A stretch of DNA of 64,000 nt. It comes from Gluconobacter sp. Gdi. GTDB lineage: Bacteria; Pseudomonadota; Alphaproteobacteria; Acetobacterales; Acetobacteraceae. The DNA lies in contig NZ_BLJQ01000003.1 in assembly GCF_014132155.1 (NCBI RefSeq), positions 246,450 to 310,449 on the forward strand, given 5' to 3'. The notes under the pieces are model-generated. The model was not told the origin of the DNA. It worked only from the letters and a program-made list of their open reading frames with translations, and made no database searches. A program made the translations under genes and the position numbers. Below are positions 27,939 to 32,740 of this stretch, piece by piece. The first letter of the stretch is position 1. Every line of letters begins with the position of its first letter.

Positions 27939-28372
27939 TGTCCGGTATCATCACTTCGGCGGATGCCATTTTTTCGCTGACCCTCTTGGCCTTGTGGGAT
28001 AAACCCCTCATCCTTGATAACTGGGGATCAGATCGAGCATGGGAACAGGAAGCGCTGGAGATGGCAGAATTCCGCATGTCGATCGATGGAAAGCTCAACA
28101 AGGGTTATGTCCCGCGTGCGGTTGTACAGTCCCTCACCCTCTCCGCTGGCTCTGCCTCGATCCCCTATTTTGAGGCGATCATCACGGGGCAGCAGCAGAG
28201 CATGAGCATCTACACGCTCGGGGCTGAACTCACGCTAAAGTCTACCGGTCGGAAGTACACATTCACGAATGGCGGCCTGAGCAGCGGCACCGTTGCGCCG
28301 AATGGCGGCGGCACACTTGAGGACCGCACTTTCTCGCTGACATGGGAGCGGGTCTTCCCGGCAGGTATCTGA
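27938..28372 (+). CDS. Tail tube protein
   Basis: 144 residues, strand-rich, directly after the sheath gene. Segments LQDWGSD-like ILDNWGSDRAWEQE, EFRMSIDGKLNKGYVPRAVV and GRKYTFTNGGLSSG fit the DUF3277-type tube family of these myoviruses. One-base overlap with the chaperone gene. Confidence 0.85.
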   Translation: MSGIITSADAIFSLTLLALWDKPLILDNWGSDRAWEQEALEMAEFRMSIDGKLNKGYVPRAVVQSLTLSAGSASIPYFEAIITGQQQSMSIYTLGAELTLKSTGRKYTFTNGGLSSGTVAPNGGGTLEDRTFSLTWERVFPAGI

Positions 28373-28839
28373 TGAAGAGCATCGAATGGATCCCAACCTC
28401 CGGTGAGGATGAGGGCAAGAAGTTCGTTATCACGCGGATGTCTGCTTTCGCTGCTGACAAGTGGGCGCGTCATACCGTGAAGGCTCTCATCAAGTCTGGG
28501 GCAAAAATTCCGGATACCGCTATGGAGGCCGGCATCTTGGGGCTTTCAGGCGTTGCCATGCAGATGTTTGGCTTCATGGATGACGATGATTGCGATAAGG
28601 CGTTCCAGGCGATGCTGGATTGCGTGAAGATCAGCCGTCTTGCCCCTGATGGGAGGACGTATTTGCCTCCCGTACAGTTGTTTGAGAATGATATCTCAGA
28701 TCCGCAGACCTTGGTGGATCTTCGCAGCGAGGCGTTCAAGCTGCACGTGGGTTTCTTCAAGGCCGCCGCGTCCCAGATTTCCCCTCTCGCGGCGGCCCTG
28801 ATCCCACCAGCAAGCCCCGAAAACTCGCCCGCTTCGTAA
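28372..28839 (+). CDS. Tail assembly chaperone, zero-frame product
   Basis: 155 residues, helical in the C-terminal half (DLRSEAFKLHVGFFKAAASQ). It lies between tube and tape measure genes, the conserved site of tail assembly chaperones, which bind the tape measure protein during tube polymerisation. A canonical slippery heptamer inside the gene leads to a longer -1 product (see next entry). Confidence 0.8.
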   Translation: MKSIEWIPTSGEDEGKKFVITRMSAFAADKWARHTVKALIKSGAKIPDTAMEAGILGLSGVAMQMFGFMDDDDCDKAFQAMLDCVKISRLAPDGRTYLPPVQLFENDISDPQTLVDLRSEAFKLHVGFFKAAASQISPLAAALIPPASPENSPAS

Positions 28840-28970
28840 ATGTCTCAAGCGTTATGGGAACCGTCATGGGCTCCGGGCAGGCCACCCTGCACGAACTCCA
28901 GACGGTCTATGACAGCGAGGACATGCTACTGATGTGGGAAGCGGCAATGGTTTGGCGGTTTAATGGGTGA
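28749..28970 (+). CDS. Tail chaperone extension reached by -1 frameshift
   Basis: GGGTTTC at 28749-28755 is a canonical X XXY YYZ slippery site in the correct frame (GGT TTC slips to GGG TTT). From 28755 the -1 frame is open for 71 codons to a TGA at 28968-28970, past the zero-frame stop at 28839. The fusion would have 199 residues and ends in SGQATLHELQTVYDSEDMLL, MWEAAMVWRF, typical of G-T type extensions. It overlaps the reverse-strand gene at 28960 by 11 bp. Confidence 0.75.
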   Translation, partial: GFLQGRRVPDFPSRGGPDPTSKPRKLARFVNVSSVMGTVMGSGQATLHELQTVYDSEDMLLMWEAAMVWRFNG

Positions 28971-29391
28971 GTGGGGTGTCTTGAGCCACGTATATGCCGA
29001 TTAGGCCGCTCTCTACTCCGTTCTTCATTGCAGCCAATTCACCATATTCCCGGCTCCAGAGCGTGTAGCCATGTCCACTAGACGATTTAATGGTGAAGTA
29101 AAATTTTGGCTTCAGCGCGAAGTACAGGGCAGTACCTGCAATTACTGCCGCGACAAGTATTCCAAGGAGAATATTGTCAGTTGTATGGAATTGCCCGTTA
29201 TCATACGCGGAAAGAGCTGCGCCTATTGCTCCAAGTGCAGACGCAATGAAAATGATCCAATATATCGTGGTAGGCTGCTGCGTTACATTCATGAAGGCTA
29301 TTTGGCGAAGCGGGAGGACCATTTCGCCAATTTTCACTGTCGTCTCACTGACTGACAAGCTGGCCGATTTGTAAAAGAGTTTCTGCTTCAT
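28960..29391 (-). CDS. DUF6232-like membrane protein (reverse-strand cargo)
   Basis: 143 residues: N-terminal strands (SVSETTVKIGEMVLPLRQI), two membrane helices (about 44-62 and 74-95), then a second strand-rich part. This resembles DUF6232-type proteins, whose split PH-like domain surrounds a helical hairpin. It is one of three reverse-strand genes inserted between tail chaperone and tape measure genes, and may be expressed in the lysogen. Function unknown. Confidence 0.6.
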   Translation of the reverse strand: MKQKLFYKSASLSVSETTVKIGEMVLPLRQIAFMNVTQQPTTIYWIIFIASALGAIGAALSAYDNGQFHTTDNILLGILVAAVIAGTALYFALKPKFYFTIKSSSGHGYTLWSREYGELAAMKNGVESGLIGIYVAQDTPLTH

Positions 29392-29466: not shown

Positions 29467-29880
29467 TCAAGCCCCTCCGCACTCGTGCTCCGAATCAGGA
29501 AGCGTCCATGATTTCATCGTGCGAAGGTCGGTTGTCGTGTAGACCTTGCCTCGGTCATCGCCTTTCGGGCAGTCGGTCGGAAGCGCCACCAGACACATCA
29601 TTACTTGATCGCCGGAATGAGCGCTGTCTACTTCAGGAAGCTGATCGTAGGAGACCTGATAACCGCCGTTGGTCAGGGCAACAGCGGAGCCGGATCCTGC
29701 AACCCATTGGTTATTGCCATCTGATAGGCGCTCTTCGACGGACTTGATGTGAGTAAAGACGCAGGTTCCGGGGCGCTTGGGAAGCCCTGGCTCGCTTGGA
29801 GTAGCTGTTGTCTGCGCCACTGCGGCATCGCTCACCAACAGTGCTGTTACTAGTCCTGTAAAAAGCAGCCAACGGTGCAT
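29467..29880 (-). CDS. Secreted Cys-containing protein (reverse-strand cargo)
   Basis: 137 residues with a Sec signal peptide (cleavage after DAAVAQ, about residue 22). The mature part has four cysteines and ends in TDLRTMKSWTLPDSEHECGG, a conserved tail I recall from small periplasmic hypothetical proteins encoded in many proteobacterial prophages. A periplasmic protein of unknown role, probably made in the lysogen. Confidence 0.7.
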   Translation of the reverse strand: MHRWLLFTGLVTALLVSDAAVAQTTATPSEPGLPKRPGTCVFTHIKSVEERLSDGNNQWVAGSGSAVALTNGGYQVSYDQLPEVDSAHSGDQVMMCLVALPTDCPKGDDRGKVYTTTDLRTMKSWTLPDSEHECGGA

Positions 29881-30013: not shown

Positions 30014-30502
30014 TCACGTTGGTCCACAAGCTCCAGCCTTATGGGCACCGTAAGTTGCCTGGGATAATGTATATTTTTCCCCAGCTGATGAGGACAATTG
30101 GTGGATTAGGCCCTTACAGGAGAATCCTGACATTTCAAGGTACTGTTTAGCCGATCGGGCTGCATTTTCATTCCAGTCTACAGTCAGGCTGTCCACCGCA
30201 ACGGTAGCATCGGCTACTGAGTAACCCTCTCCTGCGTCAGATGATAGCTGATGGATAAGTCCAGCGCGTGAAAAGCCCGTCATTTCCAAGTAATTTGTTG
30301 CGGATCTTACTGCATTGTTTTGTGCAGAAGTTAGGTTGGCTTGCCCCGAAATGGGAAATTTTTCGCCTTCAATGTCTGAGCGCGGCTGTGCCGAGCTATA
30401 ATTACTAAAATTTCTTGTTGGAGAAATGAATTGTCCGATCACGCCAAGGCAAAATAGAGAAAAAAACACACATGATGTGTATTTGAATATTTTTTTTATC
30501 AT
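30014..30502 (-). CDS. Ltp-type superinfection exclusion protein candidate
   Basis: 162 residues: an N-terminal membrane anchor (about 8-26, no lipobox at the usual place) and two tandem 45-residue helical repeats (NAVRSATNYLEMTGFSRAGL, then NAARSAKQYLEMSGFSCKGL, each followed by IHQLSS). These match the repeats of the Ltp lipoprotein of Streptococcus phage TP-J34, which blocks DNA injection by acting on the tape measure protein. The gene lies on the reverse strand immediately upstream of this prophage's tape measure gene. Role by family knowledge; untested in this host. Confidence 0.8.
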   Translation of the reverse strand: MIKKIFKYTSCVFFSLFCLGVIGQFISPTRNFSNYSSAQPRSDIEGEKFPISGQANLTSAQNNAVRSATNYLEMTGFSRAGLIHQLSSDAGEGYSVADATVAVDSLTVDWNENAARSAKQYLEMSGFSCKGLIHQLSSSAGEKYTLSQATYGAHKAGACGPT

Positions 30503-30886
30503 AAGAAATCCCGAATCATGAGTGAATAATATCCATCATTAAGTTGCCTAAATATCCCTAGAATTGAAAATTAAAACTTGAATTTAGTATGTGGTATCTG
30601 CGTTGAATTGCCCATACTTGACATCCTGTACGTCAATACAAACGGTGTTACTCCTCCTCCAATATCTTTGGATCTGGCATTAGGGAATATTCTCCCCGGT
30701 AGAGCGGATTCGGGTCAATGGAAAGAAGAGGCTACTTGTCTTGCTTAGGTGGACGAATATCCGTCGTTAAAGCGTTGTATTGCTAAAGCAATCCGCGCTT
30801 CCCGAGCGCTTAAACGCAGCCTTGTCGCTGCCTGACTGCGAAGCCGCCCCACACCGGACGGCTTTTTTATTGCCTGAAGGCCCATC
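30503..30886. other. Intergenic region before the tape measure gene
   Basis: No convincing gene. It should hold the promoter of the reverse-strand Ltp-type gene in its AT-rich left part. At its right end lies a terminator (30841-30866). The stretch 30730-30840 contains several short self-complementary segments (for example GCGCTT/GAGCGC near 30801-30815), so a small RNA is possible but not shown. Confidence 0.4.
30841..30866 (+). terminator. Terminator upstream of the tape measure gene
   Basis: AAGCCG and CGGCTT form a 6-bp stem around CCCCACACCGGA, followed by a T run (TTTTTT). It lies 20 bases before the tape measure start, in the same orientation as the late genes. Confidence 0.65.
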
Positions 30887-32740
30887 ATGCCAACTCTGCT
30901 AGACAGCCTCGTCATTCAGCTTAATCTTGACGGCAAGAACGTTGCAAAGGGCGCGCAACAGGCCGGGAAAAGCCTTAAAACGCTTGAAGGTCAAGCTGGC
31001 CACACGGCGGGAACGCTATCTGAGGCCGGCAAGACTGCGGCTGATGGGTTCTCGCGGGCACGCACTGAGGCGTTGGCGTTACTTGCTGTCTTTACGGGCG
31101 GCCGATCCCTCAAGGCGTTTACGTCCGAGATCACGCGGACCAACGCGGAATTGGGCTACACGGCGCAGCGCCTGAATATGGATCCGGGTAATCTGTACCG
31201 GATGCAGAGAGCGGTTGAGGCTGTTGGCGGCTCGGCGTCTGAAGTCGGCTCTTCTTTCCAGTCTATGCAACAGGCGCTTACGGACCCTGCGCATGCTGCT
31301 CAGCTTCAGAACACTATGGGGCAGCTTGGACTACGGGCAAACGATTACGTAGATGCGCACGGGAATATCCAACAGGACATACTGAAGCGCCTGAACCGAT
31401 CTACTCAAGGGATGAACCAGGCCGCCAAGAATAGCCTTCTCCAGTCGCTTGGAATGGGCCCCGGTGAGATTAACGAAATTAATCTGACCACACGTGCTTT
31501 CGACAAGCTTCAGGCACAACTGAAGGATACAGCCCCTACTCCCCAGCAAATCCGTGACAGCCAGCAGCTTTTGTCTGACTGGACGGCGATGACTGCCGAA
31601 ACTGAGAAGCTGGGCCGCTCGATCCTTGGCTACTTGATGCCAGGGATCGATAAGGCGGTTACTAGCTTCACAGCGTGGGAGAAGGCTAACGAACCGCTTG
31701 CAAAAGAGATCGGCGAGACCGCGCTTGCAGTTGGTGGCCTGATTACGATTTTGGGCGGGTTGGCAACCGCAAAAGGCTTGCTGATGCTCTTCAAAATCCC
31801 TGGGGCCCTGAAGAACGCGTCCGCACTCAAAGATGCAATGTTCGCTTGTGATTGTGAGGGCGGACCTGGCGCAAGCGGCGCGAAGAAGGGCGAGAATGCC
31901 GCACTGACCGCCAGCGAAAAAACTGCAAAAGAGACAGCCGAGGCTGGCGCGCGAAAGGGCGCGAGTAAGGCTTTGCCAGAAATGGGCACATATCTTGCTA
32001 AAGGTGCAGATGCGAGCGGCCTTATCTTTCGAAAATGGGCACTGAGGCAGGGGCTGCGGGCGATTCCAATCGCAGGAGAATTATACGATCTGTACGGCGG
32101 GGCTCTAAACAAAGGTGAAAGCGCTGCTGTCGACCGACTGCGCGCTCGTGGGGCTTTCGGCAATAACCCGTTCGGGAAGTATTCCGCTGCTGTGGCCGGC
32201 ATCGAAAGCGGCGGTCGGTACGACATAATGGGCGGCGCTGGTGGCAAGTACGCCGGCAAGTATCAGATGAGCCGTGATGCGATTAACGATGCAGCCAAGC
32301 GCCTGCATGAGGATGCACCTTCAACAGATCAATTCCTAAAAGATCCCGGGATGCAGGAGCGCTATTTTCGCGCCTACACGGATATGAATCGCGCCTATCT
32401 ATCTTCCCATGATGCTACGTTCAGTAAGCTTTCTGAGAATAAGCAACTTGCTATCCTTGGATATGCCCACAACCAAGGCGCGGGCGGCGCGCTCAAATGG
32501 CTGCATGGCGGGGCCGTTGGGCATGATGCCTTTGGAACCGCCGGAACTAGATACTCGGACGCCATTTCTGCCGCCCTTATGGGGCCCGACCAGCAAGTGG
32601 CACAGAACAAAACAGAGATCCATGTAGGGGATATCCACGTCACGGCCCACGGCAATGCTAATGGCCAGCAGATCGCTCGGGACGTGCACACTGAGCTGAA
32701 GCGCATTCTTCCTCACACAGCAGCAACGGGACTGGCCTGA
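30887..32740 (+). CDS. Tape measure protein with C-terminal lysozyme-like domain
   Basis: 617 residues. The N-terminal half is helical tape (LDGKNVAKGAQQAGKSLKTL; hydrophobic stretch about 275-305). The C-terminal part (about 430-560) looks like a lytic transglycosylase: AVAGIESGGRYDI with Glu440 as candidate catalytic residue, then GKYAGKYQMSRDA and LGYAHNQGAGG. The protein sets tail length and can open peptidoglycan during injection. The tape is short, so the tail should be short for a myovirus. No obvious frameshift. Confidence 0.85.
   Translation: MPTLLDSLVIQLNLDGKNVAKGAQQAGKSLKTLEGQAGHTAGTLSEAGKTAADGFSRARTEALALLAVFTGGRSLKAFTSEITRTNAELGYTAQRLNMDPGNLYRMQRAVEAVGGSASEVGSSFQSMQQALTDPAHAAQLQNTMGQLGLRANDYVDAHGNIQQDILKRLNRSTQGMNQAAKNSLLQSLGMGPGEINEINLTTRAFDKLQAQLKDTAPTPQQIRDSQQLLSDWTAMTAETEKLGRSILGYLMPGIDKAVTSFTAWEKANEPLAKEIGETALAVGGLITILGGLATAKGLLMLFKIPGALKNASALKDAMFACDCEGGPGASGAKKGENAALTASEKTAKETAEAGARKGASKALPEMGTYLAKGADASGLIFRKWALRQGLRAIPIAGELYDLYGGALNKGESAAVDRLRARGAFGNNPFGKYSAAVAGIESGGRYDIMGGAGGKYAGKYQMSRDAINDAAKRLHEDAPSTDQFLKDPGMQERYFRAYTDMNRAYLSSHDATFSKLSENKQLAILGYAHNQGAGGALKWLHGGAVGHDAFGTAGTRYSDAISAALMGPDQQVAQNKTEIHVGDIHVTAHGNANGQQIARDVHTELKRILPHTAATGLA

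Follow-up and report, generated by a model that had tools for sequence, protein, structure and literature searches.

A putative superinfection exclusion protein of the Ltp family encoded in a moron island beside the tape measure gene of a Gluconobacter prophage

The window, i.e. the whole stretch of 64,000 nucleotides analysed, carries a Gluconobacter myovirus prophage with a sheath gene (PF11863 / PHROG 205) in its contractile-tail module, in agreement with the original prediction of a Gram-negative prophage. The tail assembly chaperone frame (28342..28839, plus strand; PF21822, PHROG 1932) overlaps a second, lambda GT-like reading frame (28840..28970, plus strand), which is conserved in relatives and is predicted to be reached by a frameshift; its last residues are altered at the border of the following gene group. 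That group consists of three minus-strand genes. The first encodes a DUF6232 membrane protein of 143 aa (28960..29391) and is also found beside ltp in two related loci (L003, L009; L numbers denote the loci compared). The second encodes a protein of 137 aa with a hydrophobic N-terminus (29467..29880) and accompanies ltp in L003 and L008. Pfam and PHROG searches assigned it to no known family; homologues were found in two viral contigs and five further genomes of Acetobacteraceae, with no informative family among them. The third, which is transcribed first, is the ltp-like gene itself (30014..30502), with an ATG start; in its 162-aa product a linker joins the anchor helix to two Ltp repeats. 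The region upstream of ltp (30503..30721, minus strand) is common to the window and L008 and may retain the 3' end of an upstream gene that has been lost. An intrinsic-terminator-like boundary sequence (30839..30870, plus strand), also present 3' of antirepressor morons in other Gluconobacter prophages, marks the right edge. It is followed by the gene for the tape measure protein (TMP) of 617 aa (30887..32740, plus strand; PHROG 9570, 2276, 2013). These coordinates confirmed that ltp lies on the opposite strand directly upstream of the TMP gene. At its C-terminus the TMP also has a muramidase-like domain (PHROG 5867 endolysin, 6.8e-27).

The interval between chaperone and TMP genes was compared with that of related prophages. 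In eight Gluconobacter prophages with a related TMP (L083-L089, L091) the gap is about 150 bp and holds no island, vs 2047 bp here; a ninth (L090) has a different island after the chaperone. GC content of the island genes is 45-57%, vs 56-58% in the flanks. The enlarged gap and the deviating GC content indicate that this group of three genes is an inserted moron island of roughly 1.9 kb, with the characters that define a moron: extra DNA between genes adjacent in relatives, differing composition, and a terminator-like sequence. A promoter scan gave a number close to chance (4 found, 2.3 expected). Since ltp runs against the late operon, it is probably transcribed separately, on its own, from the prophage. 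A search of the island DNA against phage records gave no match. Islands on the chaperone side of two relatives encode a 93-aa Cas2-like protein (L003 7609-7890, plus strand; L090 835-1116, minus strand); the L003 protein matched PADLOC Cas2 at 8e-6 and scored 24.2 bits for TIGR01573, just below the cut-off of 24.5 bits, with no other cas genes nearby.

Assignment of the 162-aa product to the Ltp family was secure. Pfam detected two stretches of PF07553 (Lipoprotein_Ltp), with 103.6 bits vs a cut-off of 23.2 (E 5.8e-30). Repeat 1 extends over about residues 60-106 (30185..30325, minus strand), as located by Pfam, AlphaFold and structure comparison; repeat 2 extends over about residues 107-159 (30026..30184, minus strand), as located by Pfam and alignment, and includes Cys129 and Cys159. 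The protein matched two PHROGs annotated as "superinfection exclusion", 15667 (1.8e-45) and 4980 (1.4e-31). PADLOC and NCBIfam gave no match for ltp or either partner gene. The AlphaFold model placed a helix at residues 3-23, followed by a low-confidence linker and six helices forming the two repeats, with pLDDT 95-98 across the repeats. A sequence-profile search of the PDB gave a sole match, 4EQQ (Ltp of phage TP-J34; 1.8e-14), which also ranked first in structure comparison (Z 15.8, 1.3 Å, 98/98 residues). Next came RecX with far lower scores (Z 6-8), a likeness that we attribute to a common helical-repeat arrangement. The Pfam and PHROG matches, together with the recovery of 4EQQ by both profile and structure, establish domain and fold, so the two tandem helical repeats of the original prediction were substantiated. 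dN/dS values of 0.08-0.27 indicated purifying selection on ltp.

The predicted anchoring membrane helix was likewise found: residues 3-23 (30434..30496, minus strand) form a hydrophobic AlphaFold helix (19-residue hydropathy up to 1.78). It probably acts as a signal anchor or uncleaved signal peptide, a cleavable signal peptide being less likely. The N-terminus lacks a lipobox, unlike that of the TP-J34 prototype, and a lipoprotein was rejected on this ground. As read from the sequences, anchors vary among relatives and include a window-like helix, a lipobox (L012), a signal peptide (L050) and two hydrophobic segments (L049). Because the anchor type varies within the domain family, the membership claimed here is that of an Ltp-type fold and domain, not of a lipoprotein. 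Cys129 in repeat 2 and Cys159 at the C-terminus are present in 18/19 aligned members from Gram-negative genomes and phages, the exception being a Selenomonadales protein, and in 65/80 viral loci recovered; the pair is missing from the aligned part of 4EQQ. It likely forms a periplasmic disulfide. Display of the repeats in the periplasm is suggested by three features: an N-terminus rich in Lys, the hydrophobic helix, and conservation of the Cys pair.

TP-J34 Ltp blocks DNA injection, and the block can be overcome by changes in the TMP (PMC3952083, PMC10883804). HK97 gp15 likewise blocks DNA injection, and for both proteins changes in tail tube or TMP genes overcome the block (PMC10883804). We consider it reasonably probable that the window Ltp is a periplasmic, inner-membrane-tethered superinfection exclusion protein that blocks DNA injection through the incoming TMP and is encoded in a mobile moron island. 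The N-terminal helix would insert the protein in the inner membrane, with the two helix-turn-helix-like repeats facing the periplasm. Once another phage has inserted its TMP into the periplasm, where the TMP forms part of the conduit for DNA, the repeats would bind it and stall injection. Action through the TMP is inferred by analogy with TP-J34 Ltp and is the interpretation that we prefer. A published electrostatic model pairs an acidic Ltp with a basic TMP C-terminus (PMC3952083). Such a pairing was not seen between the window Ltp and its own TMP: net charge is -2 for the Ltp repeats and 0 for the last 100 residues of the TMP. The missing charge match would be consistent with an Ltp directed at other phages and not at its own. 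Blocking of virion assembly in the cytoplasm, of the type described in PMC10884400, was judged unlikely given the signal anchor and the conserved Cys pair.

Two other functions were weighed against this reading. Ltp could block injection at another periplasmic or inner-membrane step, by acting on a host injection factor and not on the TMP. The TMPs beside Gram-negative Ltps are unrelated to one another and the acidic/basic match is missing, as would suit a host-factor target; the fold, however, is nearly superposable on that of TP-J34 Ltp, whose block yields to TMP changes, and we regard this possibility as rather unlikely. Still less probable is a general periplasmic or surface protein acting in lysogenic conversion and unconcerned with phage exclusion. 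Ltp-repeat genes do occur on plasmids and chromosomes without obvious phage context, including chromosomal loci of other Pseudomonadota where no phage genes were clearly present (L044, L046, L047, L049, L050), and the co-travelling 137-aa and DUF6232 genes have no assigned function. The chromosomal copies without recognisable phage genes (L044, L046, L049, L050) make a host-cell role possible for some Ltp members. Against a general function unconcerned with phages, the domain occurs often in phages and prophages, and superinfection exclusion is the role of those members whose characterisation was found in the literature (PMC3952083). The L050 chromosomal gene adjoins a toxin-antitoxin-like pair.

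The mobility of the island was evident from its closest match, a G. frateurii prophage (L008). Window and L008 share a cassette of 1319 bp (89% identity) that takes in the 137-aa gene, ltp and the upstream region; the flanks gave no match. A further 66-bp match (window 30801-30866) corresponds to the end of an L008 regulator gene about 2 kb further on; on the simplest reading, a regulator segment still present in L008 has been lost from the window island. Arc-like and antirepressor genes adjoin ltp in three loci (L009, L010, L097); L008, L042 and L045 have antirepressor-type genes there. No arc or ant gene was seen next to the window ltp; such genes appear to have been lost from this island. 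The boundary sequence (30839-30870; with leader to 30886) recurs in 13/26 Gluconobacter genomes, several times between an antirepressor-type gene and the next phage gene, and terminator plus leader (30839-30886) may provide homology through which morons are exchanged by recombination. Judged from these comparisons, ltp-bearing islands are exchanged between unrelated tail modules, often together with Arc/antirepressor genes.

The original prediction had proposed that co-location may keep Ltp matched to the TMP type. The comparisons did not support this. L008 Ltp is 97% identical to window Ltp, but the L008 TMP (called by position and size, no PHROG matching it) has no similarity to the window TMP. 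Between the window and L003, the closest phages, dS was 0.10 for ltp vs 0.75 for TMP and 0.60 for DUF6232, indicating that ltp was exchanged recently and separately from TMP. Two further phages have TMPs homologous to that of the window, with ltp elsewhere: downstream of the TMP and Dit genes in L009, and about 14 kb before TMP, ahead of terminase, in L010. A search for the window TMP in viral contigs returned the already known contig alone.

The viral survey recovered 80 loci, among which those with the Cys pair formed 47 independent clusters. The chaperone-TMP slot holds ltp in at least 5/47 clusters (L096, L129/L133, L141, L148, L152), as it does in L008 and L011. About a quarter of the clusters have ltp 1-3 kb downstream of TMP, in most cases closing a P2-like tail operon at its 3' end, and the remaining loci are by terminase or elsewhere; most clusters thus lie outside the slot, and in most relatives ltp is not adjacent to TMP. 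In three loci (L114, L123, L132) an Ltp gene with a longer, multi-helix N-terminus lies between terminase and portal genes. Were every gap between genes in a phage of 40-60 genes an equally probable site, 5/47 would have a P of about 0.001-0.006, a rough value given that insertion sites are non-uniform and that the TMP calls relied on similarity to twelve seeds. Use of the slot exceeds this rough uniform expectation and is noteworthy in itself. An Ltp that stays adapted to the type of TMP encoded next to it, and that excludes phages of its own type, would account for such use, but the near-identical Ltp beside an unrelated TMP, the dS difference, the displaced ltp of L009 and L010 and the many relatives with ltp by terminase or at the tail-operon end make it very improbable, and we rejected it on the exchange data. 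The slot seems to be favoured for reasons other than Ltp-TMP pairing.

The window Ltp shares with Ltp of the Streptococcus thermophilus phage TP-J34 (PF07553; 4EQQ) two tandem repeats of the same fold, an N-terminal membrane tether with linker, and carriage by a temperate phage, at 29% identity. It differs in having a signal-anchor helix instead of a lipid, the Cys pair, slightly longer repeats, a weak net charge, a Gram-negative host and a gene position in the tail module. HK97 gp15 resembles it in position, between a frameshifted tail chaperone and the TMP gene (gp16) with a terminator before gp16, and in its single predicted inner-membrane helix and Gram-negative host. Unlike the window Ltp, gp15 has about 62 aa, is not an Ltp-repeat protein and is encoded on the late-gene strand. 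In P22, the immI region (sieA-mnt-arc-ant) is an island among late genes where an exclusion gene adjoins genes of the Arc and antirepressor types; SieA is a membrane protein unrelated to Ltp. A similar arrangement was seen for ltp in L009, L010 and L097, and the window island is without the regulators.

Gram-negative Ltp genes are not new, having already been annotated in phages and plasmids. Psychrobacter phage Psymv2 orf32 and the Acinetobacter phage AbIPP1 protein, both annotated as superinfection exclusion, share with the window Ltp the anchor helix and Cys pair; unlike the window gene, theirs are co-oriented with the late genes and lie in the head-tail connector region, at a distance of about 2-3 kb from TMP. 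We found no functional study of a Gram-negative Ltp in the open-access literature. As a tentative and rather speculative extension, the chaperone-TMP gap of phages infecting Gram-negative bacteria might be a recurrent exclusion locus in which unrelated inner-membrane-tethered proteins that block injection by way of TMPs, Ltp and gp15, settled repeatedly, and the disulfide-bearing periplasmic Ltp branch might be a widespread candidate injection-blocking system of Pseudomonadota. Ltp has so far been characterised in Gram-positive hosts. A periplasmic, Cys-paired, membrane-anchored Gram-negative branch would open the TMP/DNA-conduit step to study in tractable hosts, and the natural swap of a near-identical Ltp between phages with unrelated TMPs offers a ready-made test of whether its target is its own TMP, the TMPs of rivals or a host factor.
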